Source of the DNA: Sulfuricurvum kujiense DSM 16994
GTDB taxonomy: Bacteria; Campylobacterota; Campylobacteria; Campylobacterales; Sulfurimonadaceae
Assembly: GCF_000183725.1 (NCBI RefSeq)
Contig: NC_014754.1
Location: 1 to 64,000, forward strand
Length of the DNA: 64,000 nucleotides
Direction: 5' to 3'
Shown here in pieces: positions 8,023-19,244 of this stretch (its first letter is position 1; each line of letters opens with the position of its first letter). Under the pieces are notes generated by a model. That model worked only from the letters and a program-made list of their open reading frames with translations, had not been told where the DNA came from and made no database searches. Made by a program: the position numbers and the translations under genes.

Positions 8023-8784
8023 TTAATTTTTTGAGAATTTTCCTAAAATTTGGTATCCGATTTTGGAATGGCAGGTGATAAAGTCTTTGGGGAGTTTTTG
8101 TCGTATTCGAAACATCAGTGAGCGTAAGGCACCTTCGCCGACAAACTCTCCATCCCAGACGAAATCCTCAATTTGCTCCACAGGAACAACTCTTCCGATA
8201 TTTTTAATCAAAAGTTTGAGGAGCTTATTCTCTTTGTCATTGAGTTCAAATGTCTCTCCGTTGAACATCAGAAGGAAATTTTCATTATCGTAGATATAGC
8301 CGTGAGAAAGTTTTATAAAACGTTGTTTTTTCTGTTCATCAATATCGATTTTACTTTGCAAAGACATATTTTCAGATTTTATCTCAATGATTTTAGAGGT
8401 CAATTTTTGATTTTCTTCAAATGTTTTTAACGCGATCTCTATCGCTGTTTTTAACTCGATCTCTTTGAAGGGTTTTAGAATGTACCCATAGGGCTTAATA
8501 TTGATAGCGCGGTCGATCGTTTTGTTTTTATCGTTAGCTGTTAGAAAGATGATGGGAACGGAGCGTAATTTTGATATTTGTTCAGCGACGTCAATGCCGT
8601 CTTCGCGGTTTTGAAGTGTGATGTCCATTAGCACCAAATCGGGTAATTTGGTCGATGCGAGATGAAGTGCCTTTTCCCCGTTTGGGGCGATGCCGCTGAT
8701 TTCATAACCGAAGTTGGTGAGGATTTCTTTTATATTCAAAGCGATGATACTTTCATCTTCGACGATTAATATCTTTGTTTTCAT
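8023..8784 (-). CDS. OmpR-type response regulator of the p-cresol island
   Basis: The receiver domain (about residues 1-120) has the acidic pair Glu9-Asp10, phospho-acceptor Asp54 in Leu-Val-Leu-Met-Asp-Ile, Thr82 and Lys104 in Leu-Lys-Pro-Phe, so it should be phosphorylated. A coiled-coil linker and a C-terminal winged helix (about 175-250) follow; the wing has the usual Gly-Tyr-Gln-Ile end. The start at 8784 overlaps the kinase stop by ATGA, so the pair is translationally coupled. OmpR-type proteins bind tandem sites spaced one helical turn apart, which fits the 11-base TGCGA repeats at 10146, 18804 and 19227. Confidence 0.85.
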   Translation of the reverse strand: MKTKILIVEDESIIALNIKEILTNFGYEISGIAPNGEKALHLASTKLPDLVLMDITLQNREDGIDVAEQISKLRSVPIIFLTANDKNKTIDRAINIKPYGYILKPFKEIELKTAIEIALKTFEENQKLTSKIIEIKSENMSLQSKIDIDEQKKQRFIKLSHGYIYDNENFLLMFNGETFELNDKENKLLKLLIKNIGRVVPVEQIEDFVWDGEFVGEGALRSLMFRIRQKLPKDFITCHSKIGYQILGKFSKN

Positions 8785-10103
8785 TGATTCTCTTTCTCTT
8801 TGGGTACAAAGGTAACGGTGCACTTAAACCCGTTTGTAGAGTCGGTTATTATCTCTCCATTGAGCTGAAATTCGGTAATGGTATTGATCAATTCGCATCC
8901 CAGTGACGTAGATGTTTTGATCGCATCAGGATTAATGCCGATACCGTTATCGTTGACACCGAATTCGATTGCTCCGTTCGGTCCATTTCGTATAAATATA
9001 TCGATTTGTCCGTCATCCTTATCCACAAAAGCATGTTTGATAGAGTTCAAGAAAAGTTCATGGACGATCAAGGCGATAAGGATCGCATAATCCATGCTCA
9101 AATAGATATCTTCGGCGTTGAGACGAACCGATATATTTTTATTATGGGCATACAGATCAATCATGGCTGAGGAGAGGCGTTCGAGATGGGATTTCATATT
9201 GATGGTAGCTAAATCGCTATTTTGATAGAGCATTTCATGAACCAGGGCAATGGCGTAGATACGGCTTTGACTTTTAGATAGAGCATCTTTTATTTGATCG
9301 TTGGTTTCTCGGCGATTTTGCATCTGTAGCAACGAGGAGATCACCTCTAAATTGTTTTTGACGCGGTGATGAATCTCTTTGATGAGTACCTCTTTATCTT
9401 GCAACGAGCTTTTTAATGCTTCATTTTGTTCGGTGATGAGTTTCCGTCTCCCTTTTTGTTCGGTTATATCCCGTCCGAAAGAACAAATAAACTCTTTTGA
9501 GGCATCGCAGAAATAGCTTGCCGTTACCGAAACGGGGAACGTACTTCCGTCTTTTCGTATTTGTTGACTTTCAAAACAAATGTACTGTTTTTCTCGTATT
9601 TGAAGTAAAAAATCTTGGGTATTTTTAGTGTAGTCGGGATCGATGTCGCTGAGTTTCATCGTGAGCAATTCATCTTTGGTGTAGCCGAGCATCTTACATG
9701 CGGCATCGTTGACGTAAAAAAAACGGGTATCGAACGTAAACCAATAGATCGCATCGGCACTCTTGTCGAGAGCAAAATGAAAGCGTTGAAGATTCTCTTT
9801 TTCTTCTGCGAGTTTTTTGAGAGCATCTTCGGCAATTCGTGCGTTACGTCTGAGAAGGGTATATAAAAAAATCGCACTCAGGATAAAAAATACCGTTCCG
9901 ATGAAAAAGGGGAGGCCGAATTCGTTCGTATTCGGGTTGATTAATCGGATCGAAACCCTATCTACGATAGCAACTCCGATAACACCGACAATTGCGAACC
10001 CAAATGCTTGAAGCTTTGCTCTATTTTCATTTGAAATTTCTATCCATCGTAACAACAGTGTTCCTTTAAAATCGGATCGATTCTGAGACTGAAATTCCAG
10101 CAT
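8781..10103 (-). CDS. PAS-domain sensor histidine kinase (HisKA_2 type)
   Basis: Two hydrophobic helices at about residues 32-50 and 66-86 anchor it in the membrane with only a short loop between, so sensing is probably through the cytoplasmic PAS domain (about 100-220, with the Tyr-Val-Asn-Asp-Ala-Ala segment). A HisKA_2 dimerisation segment with Glu-Ile-His-His-Arg-Val-Lys-Asn-Asn carries the phosphorylated His, and a GHKL ATPase domain with Asp-Asn-Gly-Ile-Gly closes the protein. It is transcribed away from pchC and shares the 108-base promoter region with it. Partner: the response regulator at 8023. The signal is not shown by sequence; an alkylphenol is the natural guess from context. Confidence 0.85.
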   Translation of the reverse strand: MLEFQSQNRSDFKGTLLLRWIEISNENRAKLQAFGFAIVGVIGVAIVDRVSIRLINPNTNEFGLPFFIGTVFFILSAIFLYTLLRRNARIAEDALKKLAEEKENLQRFHFALDKSADAIYWFTFDTRFFYVNDAACKMLGYTKDELLTMKLSDIDPDYTKNTQDFLLQIREKQYICFESQQIRKDGSTFPVSVTASYFCDASKEFICSFGRDITEQKGRRKLITEQNEALKSSLQDKEVLIKEIHHRVKNNLEVISSLLQMQNRRETNDQIKDALSKSQSRIYAIALVHEMLYQNSDLATINMKSHLERLSSAMIDLYAHNKNISVRLNAEDIYLSMDYAILIALIVHELFLNSIKHAFVDKDDGQIDIFIRNGPNGAIEFGVNDNGIGINPDAIKTSTSLGCELINTITEFQLNGEIITDSTNGFKCTVTFVPKEKENQ

Positions 10104-10145: not shown

Positions 10146-10181
10146 TTATGCGAATTTTATGCGAGTTTTTTATTTTATATT
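10146..10181 (+). promoter_or_regulatory. pchC promoter with TGCGA direct repeats
   Basis: Two TGCGA units start at 10149 and 10160, 11 bases apart, inside the longer repeat TTATGCGA. Sixteen bases after the start of the second unit lies a -10 box TATATT (10176-10181), so the second unit covers the -35 position. The same arrangement precedes two other genes of the island (18784-18817 and 19210-19244). This suggests activation by an OmpR-type regulator. Confidence 0.7.
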
Positions 10182-10211
10182 TCTTCGGTTCAAACTAATC
10201 AAGGAGTTTAA

Positions 10212-10541
10212 ATGAAAAAGCTGGCTGTTGGTCTAATTTTTGTCACCACGTCCATGTTCGCTGTGGAGTTGGGTCAAAATTTTGCATTTAAAAATGGAGA
10301 GCATGCCTTTCAAAAAGTGTGTTTTCACTGTCATTCACTCAAAACGGCCCCACATAGTATTTATACCAAAATGGATGATGCTGAAGGGGTAAAACTACGG
10401 GCTGAAGGAATTTTTCAAACTGTTCGACATGGTAGCAATGCTATGCCTGCTTTTAGAAAATCGGAAATTGATGATGCGGTATTGAGAGACTTGGCAACGA
10501 AATTGGCCAACGGTACCATCACAGATCCGTCACTGAAATAA
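10212..10541 (+). CDS. pchC: Cytochrome c subunit of 4-cresol dehydrogenase type enzyme
   Basis: A 109-residue exported cytochrome: a short signal peptide (about 1-17), one haem site Cys37-Phe-His-Cys40-His41 and a Met ligand in Asn-Ala-Met-Pro-Ala near residue 77. Its size and its place as first gene before pchX and pchF match the cytochrome subunit of p-cresol methylhydroxylase, which takes electrons from the flavoprotein in the periplasm. AAGGAG lies just upstream of the start. The gene is preceded by the tandem TGCGA element. Confidence 0.82.
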   Translation: MKKLAVGLIFVTTSMFAVELGQNFAFKNGEHAFQKVCFHCHSLKTAPHSIYTKMDDAEGVKLRAEGIFQTVRHGSNAMPAFRKSEIDDAVLRDLATKLANGTITDPSLK

Positions 10542-10550
10542 GGATCACTC

Positions 10551-11129
10551 ATGGTTCGTAGAGATTTTTTAAAAAACAGTGCACTCGTAGCAGCGACAGC
10601 AGCACTCTATTCTCCGCTCTCAGCTGCAAGTTCGGATGATAGTACCGAGAAAAAGATCATTGCGATCGTTTCTGAATCCGCTCATGAGACAGGGTATATA
10701 AGTGCATTGGAAAAAGGGGATAAAGCGGATGAAGTGATTATCCTCGGTTCAGATCGTTTGAGCACAATGCACACGTTGGCATCGGCTATCGAAAACAACA
10801 AAGGATCATTGTTCTGCGGTTTGTTGGCCCCAAGCGATCATGCATTGTTAAACCAAGTTGCCATGTCAAAGGGTATTGCATTTGTCTCTGAAACGGCGCA
10901 CACACCGTCCAATACGGGCATTAGTCATACCGAGAATACGTTTGCGATGTTGTCCGTTAAAAAAGCATTTGATCAGTTTGCTTCTCTCAATACTGATAAA
11001 TACGGTGCCGCACTTTCATCGTACCACACTATCGGCGCACATAACACGGTTGCAACGGCAAAACAAACTGACTTTGTATCCGAACATACGGCGAAAAATG
11101 CGTTTGTGTCTTTCGTATTAAAAGCATAA
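10551..11129 (+). CDS. pchX: PchX-like exported protein with Tat-type signal
   Basis: The N-terminus Val-Arg-Arg-Asp-Phe-Leu-Lys is a twin-arginine signal, followed by a hydrophobic Ala-rich run and a cleavage-like Ala-Ala-Ser. The mature part (about 165 residues) has no cysteines and no motif I recognise. In Pseudomonas the p-cresol cluster has a gene of unknown function, pchX, between the cytochrome and flavoprotein genes; this protein sits in exactly that place, 9 bases after pchC and 12 before pchF. The name is therefore given by position. A role in assembly or export of the flavocytochrome is plausible but not shown. Confidence 0.6.
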   Translation: MVRRDFLKNSALVAATAALYSPLSAASSDDSTEKKIIAIVSESAHETGYISALEKGDKADEVIILGSDRLSTMHTLASAIENNKGSLFCGLLAPSDHALLNQVAMSKGIAFVSETAHTPSNTGISHTENTFAMLSVKKAFDQFASLNTDKYGAALSSYHTIGAHNTVATAKQTDFVSEHTAKNAFVSFVLKA

Positions 11130-11141
11130 AAGGAGTATTAA

Positions 11142-12689
11142 ATGGCTAAAAAATTAACTGCATTGCCTAAAAATGTTTCTGTTGAAACAATGAATAAAGC
11201 GATTAAAGAGTTTGTAAAAATTTTGGGCGAAGAGAACGTTCTCATCGGCGATGAGGAGATGGTTCCTTATAAAAAAATCATGATGGCGGTTCCGATCGAA
11301 GAGCACATGCCTTCCTTGGCTCTTCAAGCATCTACAAAAGAACAAGTTATCGCAATTGTTAAAGTGTGTAACAAATACGTCATCCCTATCTGGACATTCT
11401 CAACCGGTAAAAACATGGGTTACGGTACAGCAGCACCGGCTCAACGCGGTACGGTAATTCTTGATCTTCATAAAATGAATAAAATCATCGAAGTGAATCC
11501 TGACCTTTGTTATGCGGTACTTGAACCGGGGGTTACCTATCAGCAACTCTTTGATTACATCCATGAAAAAGGGTACAAACTCTGGCTCTCTTGCCCAGCA
11601 CCGAGCGCGATCGCAAGTCCGGTCGGTAATACGATGGACCGTGGTGTAGGATATACCCCATACGGTGAGCATTTCATGATGCAATGCGGTATGGAGATCG
11701 TTCTTGCAGACGGGTCATGCTTTAAAACCGGTATGGGGGGAATCAAAAACTCTACCAGTTCAACTGTATTCAAATGGGGATACGGACCGTCATTGGATGG
11801 TATCTTTACTCAAAGTAACTACGGTATCTGTGTACAAATGGGTATGTGGCTTATGCCGGAGCCTCCGGCGTTCAAACCTTTCTGTATCACATTGGACACC
11901 GTTGAAGATGTTGAAAAAATCGTTGAGGTTCTTCGACCGCTTCGTATCGCAAACATTATTCCGAATGCCTTCACGATCGCCAGTACCCTTTACGAAGCGG
12001 CGGGTGTCGTCAACCGTGCCGATTATGTCGATGGAAACCGCTCAATTACTGAGGCTGAAATCGAAAAAATCAAAAAAGATACCGGGATGGGATCATGGAA
12101 CGTTTATGCGGGTCTCTATGGAACACCAGAGGGGAACGAAATGAACTGGAATATCATCCAGTCGGTTGTCAATGCCAATTTTAAAGGGCATAAATTCTTG
12201 ACTTCCAAAGAGATGGGTGACGATCCGGTATTTAAATACCGCGCCGATTTGATGAGAGGGTATATGACCCTTCAAGAATTCGGTCTCTACAACTGGAGAG
12301 GCGGCGGAGGAAGTATGTGGTTCGCACCGGTTTCTCCGGCTGAGGGGAAACATACTCTAAACCAGTCGGCATTGGCTAAAAAGATTATGAATAAATACGG
12401 GTTTGACTATGTTGCCGAGTTTATCGTCGGATGGCGCGATATGCACCATATTATCGACTTGCTTTATAACCGAAACGATCCGGAAGAGATGAAACGTGCA
12501 CACGATTGTTATGCCGAATTAGTACATGAATTTGCAGCGCAAGGTTACGGTGTCTACCGTACGAGCAGCGGATTTATGGATCTTGTTGCTGAAACGTATG
12601 GCCCGGAAATTCGCGGCGTATTCCAAAAAATCAAGCGTGCACTGGATCCAAAAGGTATTTTGGCTCCCGGTAAGTCTGGGATTTATTAA
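11142..12689 (+). CDS. pchF: 4-cresol dehydrogenase (hydroxylating) flavoprotein subunit
   Basis: A 515-residue FAD enzyme of the vanillyl-alcohol oxidase family. The N-terminal FAD-binding part has the Thr-Gly-Lys-Asn-Met-Gly-Tyr-Gly segment near residue 87 and Pro-Val-Gly-Asn-Thr near 164. Tyr383 in Leu-Tyr-Asn-Trp-Arg-Gly-Gly-Gly-Gly corresponds to the tyrosine that binds FAD covalently in p-cresol methylhydroxylase (Tyr384). The enzyme oxidises 4-alkylphenols via a quinone methide to the alcohol and aldehyde, passing electrons to PchC. It has no signal of its own. Substrate could also be another 4-alkylphenol such as 4-ethylphenol or eugenol; the cytochrome partner argues for dehydrogenase rather than oxidase. 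Confidence 0.87.
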   Translation: MAKKLTALPKNVSVETMNKAIKEFVKILGEENVLIGDEEMVPYKKIMMAVPIEEHMPSLALQASTKEQVIAIVKVCNKYVIPIWTFSTGKNMGYGTAAPAQRGTVILDLHKMNKIIEVNPDLCYAVLEPGVTYQQLFDYIHEKGYKLWLSCPAPSAIASPVGNTMDRGVGYTPYGEHFMMQCGMEIVLADGSCFKTGMGGIKNSTSSTVFKWGYGPSLDGIFTQSNYGICVQMGMWLMPEPPAFKPFCITLDTVEDVEKIVEVLRPLRIANIIPNAFTIASTLYEAAGVVNRADYVDGNRSITEAEIEKIKKDTGMGSWNVYAGLYGTPEGNEMNWNIIQSVVNANFKGHKFLTSKEMGDDPVFKYRADLMRGYMTLQEFGLYNWRGGGGSMWFAPVSPAEGKHTLNQSALAKKIMNKYGFDYVAEFIVGWRDMHHIIDLLYNRNDPEEMKRAHDCYAELVHEFAAQGYGVYRTSSGFMDLVAETYGPEIRGVFQKIKRALDPKGILAPGKSGIY

Positions 12690-14152
12690 TGACTGCCCGA
12701 TTGAATATGGTTGGAGCTTCGCTCCTCATGAGTTCTTCTTTATTTGCTGCTGATACACTATCAGCAGCAATAAGTGAAGGTAAATTTTCGGGTGGTATGC
12801 GAGCGTTGTATTCGTCTTCCGATTTTGCTTCTAACGGTGCATTTGAGGATCGTTATGCCGTTGCTGCAGGTTTTAGACTTTCGTATGAGACAGCTCCGTT
12901 GTACGGCATTCAAGCAAAAGCATCATTGTACTCTGTAAGCAGTATGGGATTGAATTCCGATAATCCGAACAAAGTAGATTCGGTTTATTTCGAAAATGCG
13001 CAACACGGCGGATCTAACACGCAGAGTGTGTACGGGACATCCGCCGATAGTTATGCGGTTTTAGGTGAAGCGTATCTGAAAGCGGCATTCGGCAAAACAT
13101 TTGTGCAGGTCGGCCGTATGGAGATTGATGCCCCGTTTGCATCATCACACGATATTTATGTCGTACCGAACACCTTTGAAGCGGCTCAGATTGTGAATGT
13201 AAATATTCCCAATACCACATTGGTTCTAGCGCATGCTACGAAAATGAGCGGGCCGGATATGGTTCAAAGCAACAGCTTCGCAGGATCATCATCCGGGATT
13301 AAAGCCTCTGATTTTGTCAGTATATCCAAAGGGACAGCATTTAATAAATTATCCGATGGAGATGGCAGATTAGACACTGAGGATGATAATGCGGGTGCAA
13401 CGGTTGTCGGAGGAATCTATACCGGAGTTCCGGGATTCGTGTTACAAGGATGGTTTACACGGGTATGGGATATCATGGATATGCCGCATCTACAGATCGA
13501 TTACAGTACCAAAATCGGGGATGTAGGGCTATTTGCGGGTGCATGGTGGGCGTCACAAAAAGCCATCGGAGGGACCAAAGATACGCTGGATCATCCGGTT
13601 ACTCAGGTTCTTATCGATCACAACCTCAAGAATATCACGGCTTACCACTCAGAGGGTAAATTAGGCGCTTCGTATAAAGGGGCTACGGTTACTTTGGCGT
13701 ACGCCAATACCAAAGGGATTGATGATAATGCCGCTCGCGGTGGATTTGTTGCCCCGGTCGGCGGAAATCCGTCATGGGTTCGTGCCCGTTATCAGTCACC
13801 CCATTTTGGTTACACGGATACATCGTCGTTTACCGGGGGGACAAATTCCTATCTCGTCGGTGTGGAATATGATTTTGCCTCTGTCGGTGTAAACGACTTA
13901 AAAGGTGAAGTGAAATATCTCAATTTTAGCCGTGATAATAAATATTCGGCTGATCGAGGATTGTTAGGATATAAACCTAATGCATTCGAAGATACGACGG
14001 CTTACGAAGCATCCTTGGATTACAAAACACTTTTTGGAATAAAAGGTCTTGATGGCGGAGTAACTTTCTTATCCGTAGATAATGATGATGCTTCCGGGCA
14101 AAAATCTACCGATCACAATGATCTGCGGGTTGCAGTTAACTTGGCATTTTAA
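12689..14152 (+). CDS. Outer-membrane porin of the OprD-like Campylobacterota type
   Basis: A 487-residue protein with a signal peptide (cleaved near Phe-Ala-Ala-Asp, about residue 22), alternating beta-strand pattern throughout and a C-terminal strand ending in Ala-Phe, the usual outer-membrane assembly signal. It starts on the last base of the pchF stop codon (TAATG), so it belongs to the pch operon and is likely the entry channel for the aromatic substrate. A terminator follows at 14173. Confidence 0.78.
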   Translation: MTARLNMVGASLLMSSSLFAADTLSAAISEGKFSGGMRALYSSSDFASNGAFEDRYAVAAGFRLSYETAPLYGIQAKASLYSVSSMGLNSDNPNKVDSVYFENAQHGGSNTQSVYGTSADSYAVLGEAYLKAAFGKTFVQVGRMEIDAPFASSHDIYVVPNTFEAAQIVNVNIPNTTLVLAHATKMSGPDMVQSNSFAGSSSGIKASDFVSISKGTAFNKLSDGDGRLDTEDDNAGATVVGGIYTGVPGFVLQGWFTRVWDIMDMPHLQIDYSTKIGDVGLFAGAWWASQKAIGGTKDTLDHPVTQVLIDHNLKNITAYHSEGKLGASYKGATVTLAYANTKGIDDNAARGGFVAPVGGNPSWVRARYQSPHFGYTDTSSFTGGTNSYLVGVEYDFASVGVNDLKGEVKYLNFSRDNKYSADRGLLGYKPNAFEDTTAYEASLDYKTLFGIKGLDGGVTFLSVDNDDASGQKSTDHNDLRVAVNLAF

Positions 14153-14172
14153 TTTTTGTTTCTCTTATGAGT

Positions 14173-14194
14173 AAAGATGAGATTTCTCATCTTT
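14173..14194 (+). terminator. Terminator of the pchCXF-porin operon
   Basis: AAAGATGAGA, a two-base loop TT and TCTCATCTTT form a perfect ten-base-pair stem 20 bases after the porin stop. Confidence 0.6.
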
Positions 14195-14244
14195 GCTTGA
14201 CCTCCCCCCTTCAATAAAATTTCCCATTTTAAGGTAACATAGTC

Positions 14245-14997
14245 ATGAATAGTTCTAGCATGTTAAAAGTGCTCATTATCGGTGAAGATGAAAAGCTTAA
14301 CGCTTCACTAAAAAATTACGGGTATGGCGTATTTTCGATTCCAAACAATGTTCTGGAATTACAAAATGCACTTGCTGTGTTTCATCCGGATGTAGTTCTT
14401 ATTACAATCGAGGCCAAGCGATCGGATGAGAGTTTGAGATTGGGAGAATTCTTACATCAACTCGGATCGATCCCTTTTATGTATCTTAGTTCGCATGTGA
14501 AAGATTCTTTGCTTTTTAAAGCACTAAAAACACATCCGCACGGTTATCATGTCAAACCATATGATATTGAAAGTCTCTATACGTCGATCGAGTGTGCCTT
14601 TTATTGTTTTAAAAAAGGGCAAAAATATCAGACGACCATCCATCAGCTTCGCAGCGAATATGAGTATATGAAAAAACGGGCATTCAATTTAAAATCGAAT
14701 ACATCAAAAATAAAAATTTGTGATTGTTACCAGTATAAACTTGAAAATTATTCTCTTTTATATCACAATCTTGAAATCAAAATGACGAAAAAAGAGCGTT
14801 CCCTTATAATGCTTCTTGTCGCCGAGTTAGGCACTATTGTCGATTTTGAGCGGATTCTCAGTTTTGTATGGGGCGATGCTACAATGACGTATAATGATGT
14901 CCGGACACTGGTATGGAGATTTAATAAAAAAATACCGCAACCGATCATCCAAAATGCATCGGGAATCGGTTACTATATTGAATCAGCAAGGGCTTAA
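14245..14997 (+). CDS. Atypical response regulator lacking the phospho-acceptor Asp
   Basis: This 250-residue protein has the same layout as the regulator at 8023: receiver domain, coiled-coil linker and C-terminal winged helix. In the receiver the acidic pair (Glu14-Asp15) and Lys in Val-Lys-Pro-Tyr are kept, but the position of the phosphorylated Asp is Thr54 (Val-Val-Leu-Ile-Thr-Ile), so ordinary phosphorylation is not possible. Such regulators act phosphorylation-independently or by pairing with another regulator. It starts 50 bases after the terminator of the pch operon. Its C-terminal domain resembles that of the first regulator, suggesting an old duplication and possibly shared DNA sites. 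Confidence 0.75.
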   Translation: MNSSSMLKVLIIGEDEKLNASLKNYGYGVFSIPNNVLELQNALAVFHPDVVLITIEAKRSDESLRLGEFLHQLGSIPFMYLSSHVKDSLLFKALKTHPHGYHVKPYDIESLYTSIECAFYCFKKGQKYQTTIHQLRSEYEYMKKRAFNLKSNTSKIKICDCYQYKLENYSLLYHNLEIKMTKKERSLIMLLVAELGTIVDFERILSFVWGDATMTYNDVRTLVWRFNKKIPQPIIQNASGIGYYIESARA

Positions 14998-15002
14998 TGC
15001 CC

Positions 15003-15533
15003 TTAGCTGTTTTGCAAAATAAAATTTTTGTAATCAGTGGCACCTTGTGCAAGTGCTTCGGGAGTGATCCCAAGTGCACCTCCAACGGCAAAAATACCTT
15101 TAAATTCCATCCCTGTGTAAAGGATACTTGCTTTGAGCGGTAGAAAGTATTCTTCGAGAGTAAAACGGTTATATCCTTCCGCACTGTATTCAGCGACCGG
15201 CGATCCTGCGCTGACAACGATGTGAGCCTCTTTGCCAACCAATTTCGTCCCCTCGTGCCCATACGCAAATCCGTATGCAAAGACTTTATCCAGCCACTCT
15301 TTTAAAATGGCAGGAGAACTGAACCAATAGAGAGGAAATTGAAAAATGATTCGTTCATGAGCCAAAAGCAGCTCCTGCTCTTGGGCTACATCTATATTTT
15401 CAACGGTTGTATAGGTTGTATACAGATCGTGTACCGTGATCTCATTTTCATCTTTGATTGTTTCGATCAGGGCTTTATTGACGACCGATTCTTGCATATT
15501 TGGGTGTGCGAGCACTATCAGTGTTTTTTTCAT
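15003..15533 (-). CDS. NAD(P)H-quinone reductase, flavodoxin-like fold
   Basis: A 176-residue protein of the Flavodoxin_2 group (KefF/MdaB/NQO1 type). The start Lys-Thr-Leu-Ile-Val-Leu-Ala-His-Pro is the FMN/FAD phosphate loop; Phe-Gln-Phe-Pro-Leu-Tyr-Trp-Phe at about 68-75 and Lys-Glu-Trp-Leu-Asp-Lys-Val are family signatures. These enzymes reduce quinones by two electrons and protect against reactive aromatics. It is the last gene of a reverse-strand series beginning with the aldehyde dehydrogenase (gaps of 57, 25 and 51 bases), so it probably detoxifies quinone by-products of phenol oxidation. Confidence 0.78.
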   Translation of the reverse strand: MKKTLIVLAHPNMQESVVNKALIETIKDENEITVHDLYTTYTTVENIDVAQEQELLLAHERIIFQFPLYWFSSPAILKEWLDKVFAYGFAYGHEGTKLVGKEAHIVVSAGSPVAEYSAEGYNRFTLEEYFLPLKASILYTGMEFKGIFAVGGALGITPEALAQGATDYKNFILQNS

Positions 15534-15584
15534 GAGTTTTTCCTTTGGTGTAAAATTAATTCAATTTGGATGTGCTGATCATCA

Positions 15585-16385
15585 TTAAATGCGATCAGAT
15601 TTTGGAGCTAATTGTCCAATGACATCCCAATGTTCAACTATTTTGCCGTTATTAACTCTAAAAATATCACTAAAAGATACTTCAGACCCGGCAAAAGTCC
15701 CCTCAGCGGCAATAAATACAAAATTTCCTTCTCCCAAAATCAGGTAAGGTTTATTATATTTCATCGTCCATCCATTCTTTGCCATTGCATTCAACGCCTC
15801 TTGAAGTCCGCTTAAATTGTCTGCAACATGCGGATTATGCTGGGTATAGTGATTGGCATCAATATATTTTGTGATTTTTTCTTTTTCCCCTTTCATAAGA
15901 ATTGTTTCTACGAACTCTTGGACCAAAGCTTTATTTGTTTGTGTTTTATCTCGATCGGTAATTTCGGTAGTGCCGTCGATCATACTGTGTCCGCTTGGGT
16001 TCAACGGTTGCTTTGTTTCAAAATTATCCCAATGCTCAACAATCTCTCCATTGTCAAATCTGAAAACATTAAAACCTATTTTGTCGCCATAATCGGATTG
16101 CAATACAACATAATTTCCGTCTACAATGGTGCGTACGAGCGAGATTTTTTTAGATTGCTTGATCGATTGTAGTAACCCTTCTCTGCCAGGCTGTAAGGAA
16201 AGGTCGTGTTGAATGAAGTTATCTTTGCTTACCCAAGTAAGAATAGCTTTCGGATCGCTGTTTTCGAAACTTTTCAGGACTTCAATAGCTTTTTGGTCAT
16301 TGCGAGCAAGTGCATCATTGCTTGCAAAAAGTGTTGCTGTAAAACTCGCAAATAAGAGTGCTGAAACTATTTTACTTTTTTTCAT
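15585..16385 (-). CDS. Exported protein with two SnoaL-like (NTF2-fold) domains
   Basis: A signal peptide ends around Leu-Phe-Ala-Ser (about residue 22). The remainder is two similar halves of about 110 residues. Each has the Tyr/Phe-x-Gln-His segment early and ends with Phe-Arg-Phe/Val-x-Asn-Gly-Glu/Lys-Ile-Val-Glu-His-Trp-Asp, the hallmark of the SnoaL-like polyketide cyclase fold. Such proteins often bind hydrophobic or aromatic ligands, so a periplasmic binding or isomerase role in the aromatic pathway is possible. No function is proven. It sits 25 bases after the YitT gene. Confidence 0.72.
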   Translation of the reverse strand: MKKSKIVSALLFASFTATLFASNDALARNDQKAIEVLKSFENSDPKAILTWVSKDNFIQHDLSLQPGREGLLQSIKQSKKISLVRTIVDGNYVVLQSDYGDKIGFNVFRFDNGEIVEHWDNFETKQPLNPSGHSMIDGTTEITDRDKTQTNKALVQEFVETILMKGEKEKITKYIDANHYTQHNPHVADNLSGLQEALNAMAKNGWTMKYNKPYLILGEGNFVFIAAEGTFAGSEVSFSDIFRVNNGKIVEHWDVIGQLAPKSDRI

Positions 16386-16410
16386 AAGTTTTTCCTTTTG
16401 TGTGTAAAAT

Positions 16411-17247
16411 TTAATGCAATTCGGATGCTTCCATCACGACGAGAAATCCCTCTTTATCATGCTCTTTGACAATTTCCCGTACAACGCGTATCTGGGTATT
16501 ATCGATAATCAGGATAAGGAGCTGTTCGGCTTCGCTAACCCCTTCGAAAACGACTTCATTTTTTCCTAAAGCGGCAATAATATGCTGACGTAAAAGCTTT
16601 GCCTTTTTGGAAAAGATATGAACCGCTTTTTTGGAAGGTCTTCCCGAAATGATGGTATTTAATGCCTTTCCCGTCGCATAGACGACGATCAAACTCAAGA
16701 GGGCACTTTCTACTTTAGCAAAAGCGATCCCGGCCGCAATAACAATCATAAAATCCAAGGTGATAATGACGTTATTTTGTTTCCAATCCATTCTATCGGC
16801 TATGTATCTCGCAATGATGGAGGGGCCTCCTGCCGAGGCATTACCTGCAATAATAAATCCAAGACCGATTCCGATAGCGATACCGCCGAAGATACTTGAT
16901 AAAATCGGATCATTTGTCCACGCGGTGACATGGAAATATTCGCGCAGTATATCGACTACCGACGATGAGACGACGATCGAGAAAACTGTACGAATTGCAA
17001 ACTCTTTGCTGATGTATCGCATACTCATCAGCACGAGAGGGATATTGATCAAAAACATCAATACCCCTGCCGGAATCCCCGTAAAGTAGTTTATGAGGAT
17101 CGATATACCGGGAGTTCCTCCGGCGACGATATGGTTCGGTATCAAAAACAACACGACCCCAAGTGCCAGTGAAGAAGCCCCGATAAAGATAAAGAGATAT
17201 TTTTTGAGTACATCGTTGATCGGAATATCCGCGAGTTTGTGTATCAT
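16411..17247 (-). CDS. YitT-family membrane protein
   Basis: A 278-residue protein with about five membrane helices in residues 15-185, containing Gly-Gly-Thr-Pro-Gly-Ile-Ser and Ala-Ser-Ala-Gly-Gly-Pro-Ser-Ile, and a soluble C-terminal DUF2179 domain (about 215-275). This is the usual YitT architecture (DUF161 plus DUF2179). Function of the family is unknown; transport is often assumed. It lies in the operon behind the aldehyde dehydrogenase. Confidence 0.82.
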   Translation of the reverse strand: MIHKLADIPINDVLKKYLFIFIGASSLALGVVLFLIPNHIVAGGTPGISILINYFTGIPAGVLMFLINIPLVLMSMRYISKEFAIRTVFSIVVSSSVVDILREYFHVTAWTNDPILSSIFGGIAIGIGLGFIIAGNASAGGPSIIARYIADRMDWKQNNVIITLDFMIVIAAGIAFAKVESALLSLIVVYATGKALNTIISGRPSKKAVHIFSKKAKLLRQHIIAALGKNEVVFEGVSEAEQLLILIIDNTQIRVVREIVKEHDKEGFLVVMEASELH

Positions 17248-17304
17248 GGTGAAGCCTATGCGATTGAATAGTGATTGTGGAAAATACCCCGAAAGGGGTA
17301 TCGA

Positions 17305-18750
17305 TTAAAACGGATAGTGTCTGTTACCTGCCGCTTCGACGGTAACCCATTTGAGCTCGGTCATCTCTTCGATCGCGAAGTGACCTCCCTCGCGTCCCAT
17401 ACCGCTCTCTTTGACTCCGCCGAACGGAATATGGGCTTCATCCTGGATGGTCGGTCCATTGATGTGGACCATCCCCGATTCGATCTCTTCGGAGAGTCTC
17501 AGTGCGGCACTTAAATTGTCCGTAATGATGGATGAGCTTAAGCCGTAGTTGCTGTTATTGGCGAGTTCAATGACATGATCCAGATCCCGTGCTTTGATAA
17601 TCGCAGCGGCAGGACCGAATGCCTCTTCATGGAAAATGACCATCTCTTCAGTGACGTTGGAAACGACGGTCGGTTTGTAAAAGCATCCCTCATGTTCACG
17701 TCCCGAGAGAAGTGTGGCCCCTTTGGCTACCGCATCATCGATTAATCCGTCAATAAATCGGCATTGTGCCTCTTCGATCAACGGTCCGATAATGGTGGAT
17801 GGATCTTCAGGATTACCGACTTTGAGGGTTTTAACTTTGGCGGCAAATTTTTCGCAGAACTCATCGTAAATATTCTCTTCGACGATAATGCGTGAGCCCG
17901 CCATACAGATTTGTCCTTGGTGGAGGAAGATACTAAATGTCGCCGTGTCGACCGCATAATCGACATCGGCATCGCCCAATACGATGGTCGGGGATTTGCC
18001 GCCGAGCTCAACGGTACATTTTTTCAAATGCATAGCCGCTGATGCCGCTACCAATTTACCGACACGCGTTGATCCGGTAAGGGTAATCATTGCGATACGG
18101 GGGTCAGTTTGAAACGTTTCGCCTAAATCACCGCTAGAACATGGGATGATATTGAGTACACCGTCCGGCAAGCCCGCTTCTTTAAAGATTTCGCCGAAAA
18201 TAAGACCGCAGATCGGGGTATGGCTGGAGGGTTTCAACACAAAAGCATTACCTGCAGCAATAGCCATGGCAAATTTTTTGGTACTCAAAATCATAGGGGC
18301 ATTAAACGGAGATATCCCCGCAATGACTCCCAGAGGTCGGCGAGTGCTGTAAGAGAGTACTCCAGGATCGTTAGAGGTAAACGTCTGGCCGAATACCCGT
18401 CTGGCTTCACCGGCAGCTACCCGTAATATGTCAGCGACAAGACCGATTTCAAACATTGCTTTGGCGTACACCGAACCGCTTTCTCTCATCAAAATAGTGC
18501 GTATCTCATCGGTTCGGCTCTCAAAAATATCGGCCGCTTTTAAGAGTACCGCCTCTTTTTCTCTTGGGGTTGTTTTCGCCCAGAGTTTTGATGCTGCGTA
18601 GGCAGTACTGATTGCTTCTTCGATGTCTTCGGCACTTGCTAAATGGACTTTGGCAAATACTTCTCCCGTTGCAGGGTTGACGTCATCGATCACTTTACCG
18701 GGGTGTGAGGGTTTGTTTTGCCCGTTGATAAACGGCATATATTCTTTCAT
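17305..18750 (-). CDS. NAD(P)-dependent aromatic aldehyde dehydrogenase
   Basis: A full-length ALDH of 481 residues with the oxyanion/nucleotide segments Ile-Ser-Pro-Phe-Asn-Ala-Pro (147-153) and Phe-Thr/Leu-Thr-Gly-Ser, general base Glu248 in Glu-Leu-Gly-Gly-Lys, and catalytic Cys282 in Gly-Gln-Ile-Cys-Met-Ala. The closest type I recall is benzaldehyde or vanillin dehydrogenase. Beside pchCXF its likely substrate is 4-hydroxybenzaldehyde, made by the flavocytochrome, giving 4-hydroxybenzoate; in Pseudomonas the equivalent gene is pchA. It leads the reverse-strand operon and has its own TGCGA-repeat promoter. Confidence 0.85.
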   Translation of the reverse strand: MKEYMPFINGQNKPSHPGKVIDDVNPATGEVFAKVHLASAEDIEEAISTAYAASKLWAKTTPREKEAVLLKAADIFESRTDEIRTILMRESGSVYAKAMFEIGLVADILRVAAGEARRVFGQTFTSNDPGVLSYSTRRPLGVIAGISPFNAPMILSTKKFAMAIAAGNAFVLKPSSHTPICGLIFGEIFKEAGLPDGVLNIIPCSSGDLGETFQTDPRIAMITLTGSTRVGKLVAASAAMHLKKCTVELGGKSPTIVLGDADVDYAVDTATFSIFLHQGQICMAGSRIIVEENIYDEFCEKFAAKVKTLKVGNPEDPSTIIGPLIEEAQCRFIDGLIDDAVAKGATLLSGREHEGCFYKPTVVSNVTEEMVIFHEEAFGPAAAIIKARDLDHVIELANNSNYGLSSSIITDNLSAALRLSEEIESGMVHINGPTIQDEAHIPFGGVKESGMGREGGHFAIEEMTELKWVTVEAAGNRHYPF

Positions 18751-18783
18751 GATGGATGCTCCTATGTGGAATTAATTTTGTCC

Positions 18784-18817
18784 ATCATAAAGAAAAAAAC
18801 TCGCTAAAAACTCGCAA
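18784..18817 (-). promoter_or_regulatory. Aldehyde dehydrogenase promoter with TGCGA-type repeats
   Basis: On the reverse strand TGCGA (18816-18812) and AGCGA (18805-18801) are 11 bases apart, followed by T-rich sequence and a -10 box TATGAT (18789-18784) that begins exactly 16 bases after the start of the second unit. The geometry equals that before pchC and before the gene at 18841. Confidence 0.7.
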
Positions 18818-18840
18818 CCTTTAAATTCATAGATACTCAA

Positions 18841-19182
18841 TCATGCATCGTGATGATAATGATCCAAAACTCTCTGGTATTCCTGATGGATTTCATAAGG
18901 TGTCAGGGAAGTGTTAAACATTTTGAGGATTTGACGGATGAAATCAATCGGATATTCAACGCTTAAGCCTACGTTTTGTGCGTATATTTTTTCCAATGTT
19001 TCATACATCCCTGCGTGTACGTCAGGATAGTCTTTTTGAAGCCGTTTGAGATTTTCCTCAGCTTTCATCAATGAGCTGTCATTAAATTCGCCACGTTCAT
19101 GGATATTTTTGCGAACTTCTACATACTCAATAAGACTTTTTTGGTTGAGAACATAATCCGTAAATATTTCTATGAGAGACAT
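18841..19182 (-). CDS. Unknown small protein of the p-cresol regulon, 113 residues
   Basis: I do not recognise this protein. It is soluble, mostly helical by composition, without cysteines, and ends in a His-rich tail (His-Tyr-His-His-Asp-Ala). The ATG at 19182 follows an ideal GGAGGAA; a longer frame from 19197 would start inside that site. It lies just upstream of the aldehyde dehydrogenase and has its own copy of the TGCGA-repeat promoter, so it should be expressed together with the p-cresol genes. Confidence 0.65.
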   Translation of the reverse strand: MSLIEIFTDYVLNQKSLIEYVEVRKNIHERGEFNDSSLMKAEENLKRLQKDYPDVHAGMYETLEKIYAQNVGLSVEYPIDFIRQILKMFNTSLTPYEIHQEYQRVLDHYHHDA

Positions 19183-19209
19183 AGTTCCTCCAATCAATAT
19201 TTTTTGTTG

Positions 19210-19244
19210 ATTGTATAGATTAATGTTCGCAAAAAAATCGCAGT
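19210..19244 (-). promoter_or_regulatory. Promoter of the 113-residue gene with TGCGA repeats
   Basis: On the reverse strand TGCGA units start at 19242 and 19231, 11 bases apart with a pure T spacer. A -10 box TACAAT (19215-19210) begins 16 bases after the second unit, the same spacing as at the two other promoters of the island. Confidence 0.68.

Follow-up and report, generated by a model that had tools for sequence, protein, structure and literature searches.

Gene content of the island

The window analysed here covers bases 1 to 64,000 of a contig (C1) of 118,585 bases, belonging to a genome of 2,819,357 bases in five contigs, the largest of which has 2,574,824. On the forward strand, the pch operon starts with the gene for a pchC-like cytochrome c (10212–10541), followed by those for a 192-residue protein with a twin-arginine (Tat) signal (10551–11129), for the 4-cresol dehydrogenase (p-cresol methylhydroxylase) flavoprotein PchF (11142–12689; best solved match 1dii/1wve, E 7e-207) and for an OprD-family porin (12689–14152). 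The position of the Tat signal protein between pchC and pchF is kept in the Sulfurimonadaceae loci and in L028. Further along the same strand lies a gene for a response-regulator paralogue with an OmpR-type DNA-binding domain, which lacks the phospho-acceptor aspartate and is called RR2 here (14245–14997). A perfect inverted repeat, AAAGATGAGA-TT-TCTCATCTTT (14173–14194), is located between oprD and RR2 and possibly separates RR2 from the pch operon.

Divergent from pchC, the reverse strand encodes a sensor kinase (8781–10103), made up of amino-terminal hydrophobic segments, a PAS domain, HisKA_2 and HATPase, and its partner RR1 (8023–8823), a response regulator with a receiver domain in which the aspartate is intact (PF00072) and an OmpR-type DNA-binding domain (PF00486). 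The likely start codon of RR1 is the ATG at 8784, which overlaps the kinase stop codon, and the kinase gene adjoins RR1 also in the relatives read. At the other end of the island, again on the reverse strand, a 113-residue protein of no confident family (18841–19182) precedes an aldehyde dehydrogenase (ALDH; 17305–18750) of the 4-hydroxybenzaldehyde type, its best solved match being a 4-hydroxybenzaldehyde dehydrogenase, and a YitT-family membrane protein follows ALDH (16411–17247). The 113-residue gene adjoins ALDH in three species. Outside the island, between 22089 and 26316, a possible replication initiator is followed by ParA-like and ParB-like genes, an arrangement consistent with a plasmid.

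A tandem box at three promoters

Three promoters of the island share the pattern TGCGA-N6-(T/A)GCGA-N11-TANNNT. Upstream of pchC (forward strand, 10149–10181), TGCGA is found at 10149–10153 and 10160–10164, with the -10 box TATATT at 10176–10181. The 113-residue gene is preceded, on the reverse strand (19210–19242), by TGCGA at 19242–19238 and 19231–19227 and by TACAAT at 19215–19210. For ALDH (reverse strand, 18784–18816), the elements are TGCGA at 18816–18812, AGCGA at 18805–18801 and TATGAT at 18789–18784. An earlier note on this DNA had reported TGCGA pairs at these promoters; all three are where it placed them, although the second ALDH unit reads AGCGA, one mismatch to the TGCGA pattern. 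The geometry it described, with units 11 bases apart and 16 bases from the first base of the second unit to that of the -10 box, holds at all three sites, and the distance from the first unit to the start codon is 60–66 bases in each case.

Direct repeats 10–11 bp apart, together with a linked regulator containing receiver and Trans_reg_C domains, are the marks of an OmpR/PhoB box. Here the spacing is 11 in three of three sites, and RR1 has both domains and is linked to the boxes, also in relatives. The box appears to take the place of a -35 element at a fixed distance from a sigma-70 -10 box, with N11 to TANNNT strongly preferred. This preference was seen in 61 loci, the window included, nearly all of them fetched for an RR1-family gene and six chosen by the motif itself: GCGA/GCGA/TANNNT matched 28 times at spacing 11 with N11, and other combinations of spacing and distance matched 0–7 times each, usually 0 or 1. 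Three loci picked by RR1 similarity only (L081–L083) contribute six of the 28 matches. Across 58 distinct sites, T is found at positions 21 (53 of 58) and 22 (56 of 58), five and six bases before the -10 box.

When one mismatch is allowed, the island contains three matches, whereas 1000 dinucleotide shuffles yielded 0.015 on average and at most 1. Over the whole genome the same pattern matches 11 times, against 7 for the reversed control, and three of the 11 fall in these 9 kb. A similar sequence at 9807, within the kinase gene, was left uncounted because it is not returned once the -10 box is required. The refined pattern TGCGANTTTTNNGCGAN11TANNNT has three matches in the 2.82 Mb genome, all in the island, and none in the control; it was drawn from the three sites themselves, so that the original one-mismatch pattern gives the fairer figure. 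Had the arrangement turned up at numerous unrelated promoters, this would have spoken against the earlier proposal of a shared regulatory site; the genome scan for the refined pattern returned no such promoters. In the phylum, the refined pattern is present in 12 of 397 genomes. Two of the genomes scanned, G159 and G278, have one box-like match each and no RR1 relative; these matches are plausibly due to chance.

Conservation in p-cresol relatives and beyond

A close PchF is encoded in seven of the 397 phylum genomes, and in six of these (G000, G191, G288, G360, G206 and G061) an RR1 orthologue lies beside pchC. All six have the box before pchC, before ALDH, or before both. In the seventh, G301 (L030), PchF, PchC and ALDH are present and RR1 is not; its intergenic region contains no box. 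A further search of the family added G523, G497 and G539. The pchC box is kept in L018/L160, L025–L027, L029, L161 and L162, and occurs as the one-base variant TGCGA/TGTGA in L028 (G206). The ALDH box, usual in relatives that have both PchF and an RR1 orthologue, is kept in L028, L029, L161, L162 and L077, with the form TGCGA/TACGA in L162.

In the locus of G497 (L162) all three genes, pchC, the 113-residue gene and ALDH, have the site, always with N11 and TANNNT; the counterpart before the 113-residue gene reads TACGA-N6-TGCGA-N11-TAAAAT. In G523 (L161), the pchC and ALDH boxes are kept, and the 113-residue gene, here downstream of oprD, has no separate box. Both loci show the 113-residue gene to be a genuine part of the island.

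Loci fetched by RR1 similarity from a second family, which we infer to be that of Arcobacter (f7), contain the same box with the same distances. There it precedes genes for a phenol hydroxylase subunit (PF06099), the Phenol_Hydrox large subunit (PF02332), a 2Fe-2S ferredoxin, an SDR protein and others. The p-cresol genes of the Sulfurimonadaceae and the phenol-hydroxylase genes of the Arcobacter family thus seem to be linked through one regulator clade.

RR1 as the predicted binder

The earlier note attributed the boxes to one shared regulator of the OmpR family, and conservation and co-occurrence with RR1 orthologues strongly support this, with RR1 as the predicted binder. Between the two candidates that it had left side by side, the gene at 8023 and its paralogue at 14245, the comparison of loci favours the former. 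A tree of 62 regulators places the motif-positive ones, 13 in number, in a single clade of 16 (SH-aLRT 99). The remaining three members (L078–L080) have TGAGA-N6-TGAGA-N11-TACAAT in the matching intergenic region. Regulators outside the RR1 clade, including the chromosomal regulator of this genome, adjoin TGTGA-N6-TGTGA; TGTGA pairs gave 16 hits at spacing 11 and seven at 12. Over spacings of 9 to 13, loci of the RR1 clade contain TGCGA pairs at 11 alone, 38 of them, while control-clade loci contain one TGCGA pair. The three boxes are very likely the binding box of the OmpR/PhoB-type regulator RR1 (8023–8823), since the box reappears beside RR1-clade regulators with its spacing unchanged and sister regulators adjoin TGTGA or TGAGA boxes of the same geometry.

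RR2 differs from RR1 in several respects. Its phospho-acceptor aspartate is replaced by threonine (VVLITIE, compared with LVLMDIT), its recognition helix is RTLVWRFNKK where box-positive regulators have RS..FR[IL]R, and it groups with the clade of the chromosomal regulator of this genome (SH-aLRT 97–100) on a long branch (end branch 1.64). It could nevertheless modulate the response, with RR1 as the activator and RR2 either acting on those boxes too or forming pairs with RR1, for instance as a phosphorylation-independent antagonist or as a relay to a chromosomal regulon. Its presence in the plasmid-borne island, the loss of the aspartate and its high divergence would fit such a role, which we consider unlikely: the plasmid has no tandem box of the TGTGA type predicted for RR2, even with up to one mismatch allowed, and RR2 was not found in L161 and L162, relatives in which the regulon is present.

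Recognition of the boxes by a different regulator, encoded elsewhere, is distinctly less probable. This reading could draw on G146 (L077:8835-9400), in which the ALDH box has perfect geometry although no RR1 orthologue was found in the genome. However, the ALDH gene there breaks off after some 69 residues, seemingly because of an IS3-like insertion element, and for this reason the box is best read as a remnant. The co-occurrence of box and RR1-clade genes across three families, and the change of box base together with clade or helix, also argue against another regulator.

Equally improbable is direct binding of RR2 to the boxes, independent of phosphorylation. RR2 has an OmpR-type DNA-binding domain and its gene follows oprD on the same strand, but the loci of its clade carry TGTGA boxes, its helix is unlike that of the box-positive regulators, and L161 and L162, which keep the sites, yielded no RR2-like gene. 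The clade linked to TGTGA boxes and the absence from site-keeping relatives make RR2 an unlikely binder, and the plasmid, as said, is without a TGTGA tandem box. Finally, T-rich spacers are usual in Campylobacterota promoters and the boxes do contain T runs, but chance, or an ordinary T-rich promoter feature of the phylum without a dedicated regulator, is ruled out for practical purposes by the genome and phylum scans, with the refined pattern confined to 12 genomes of 397 and, in this one, to the island.

Proposed mechanism and comparison with known systems

With RR1 as the regulator, the divergently encoded PAS/HisKA_2 kinase would sense p-cresol or a related phenol and phosphorylate RR1. 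Dimers of RR1 would then bind head-to-tail to the two TGCGA half-sites, one helical turn apart. Since the box occupies the -35 place, bound RR1 would bring sigma-70 polymerase to the -10 box, which follows after 11 bases. The operon of pchC, the Tat protein gene, pchF and oprD, the 113-residue gene, and ALDH with the genes that follow it would be switched on as one regulon for the conversion of p-cresol to 4-hydroxybenzoate. What the sequences show directly is the sites, how rare and how conserved they are, and that they occur together with RR1; we infer the binding, the activation rather than repression, and the inducer alike. The model provides a testable regulon and a promoter anatomy for the catabolism of aromatic compounds in Campylobacterota.

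The pho box of E. coli consists of 11-nt direct repeats (PMC4415409) and is followed, after about 10 bp, by a TAN3T/A -10 box (PMC1906773). The boxes described here are similar, being tandem direct repeats with an 11-base period upstream of a TAN3T -10 box, and RR1 has an output domain of the OmpR/PhoB type, with an arginine kept at the position of the guanine-contacting Arg201 of PhoB. They are not members of a PhoB regulon: the half-site is TGCGA instead of TGTCA, the kinase is of the PAS/HisKA_2 type, and the genes serve aromatic catabolism, here of p-cresol, instead of phosphate.

In Aromatoleum aromaticum, the genes for p-cresol oxidation have a two-component system, PcrSR, which is sigma-54-dependent and has a V4R sensor (PMC10715001). 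Our island likewise combines p-cresol oxidation genes with a two-component system, by which they are predicted to be controlled, but RR1 is an OmpR-type regulator with Trans_reg_C, the -10 boxes are sigma-70-like, and the kinase has PAS and HisKA_2 and no V4R match. As PcrSR depends on sigma-54 and a V4R sensor, control of p-cresol genes would be of a different class here. Within the same phylum, PhosSR of Campylobacter jejuni also includes an OmpR-type regulator, and its box is tandem with a similar spacing; the repeat sequence and the signal, phosphate, are different. No paper describing the TGCGA tandem box was found in a search of open-access papers.

A candidate residue-to-base rule

The comparison with sister clades suggests a candidate residue-to-base rule for OmpR-type regulators. 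Tentatively, and with somewhat less than even confidence, we propose that a whole family of OmpR-type regulators in Campylobacterota uses one fixed geometry, TGNNA-N6-TGNNA-N11-TANNNT, in which the middle base is mainly set by one recognition-helix residue (Ser for C, Thr for T, Gly or Asn for A). In loci where the regulator has serine at the position of RR1 Ser235, the middle base is C in 33 cases, A in one, G in one and T in none. With threonine it is T in 23, A in one and C in none, and with glycine or asparagine it is A in three, two further cases being in loci with an additional regulator. In this comparison, hardly any hits came from control pentamers. Serine also accompanies TGC in more distant boxes of the TGCAA type (L099, L191).

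Several loci weaken the case for a strict one-residue code. The regulators of L108 and L118 have asparagine and yet are found with TGTGA/TATGA, the second regulator of L174, a member of the RR1 clade, has threonine beside TGCGA, and regulators with alanine stand beside TGTGA (L103) or TGCAA (L121). The rule is offered as a hypothesis, as the independent evolutionary changes are few and the counts are not corrected for phylogeny.

RR1 Ser235 probably aligns with Val197 of PhoB, an equivalence taken from aligning the helices by eye without gaps, several of the printed helix alignments containing a one-residue gap. In PhoB, Val197 contacts thymines and Arg201 contacts guanine (PMC3973317). When full-length RR1 was compared with solved structures by phmmer, the matches were mostly to receiver domains, and a profile of the DNA-binding domain reached PhoB weakly (E about 8e-4). 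If the rule is true, the sequence of a regulator would predict its regulon.

Other tandem boxes in the genome

Two further types of tandem box are present in this genome. TGC[AG]ACA-N4-TGC[AG]ACA-N11-TANNNT occurs at four promoters, L191:7138, 9901 and 14004 (chromosome C4:1629137, 1631900 and 1636003) and C4:2240128. Three of these four surround a cluster of sensor, diguanylate-cyclase-like and response-regulator genes, in which the regulator helix is STIRSLVNRVRSKL. Chromosomal TGTGA-N6-TGTGA-N11-TANNNT boxes are located at L089:13647 (C4:2016614) and at C4:1971575; the former lies near the chromosomal paralogue of RR2 and precedes a gene that, by resemblance, encodes a putative sulfide:quinone oxidoreductase.
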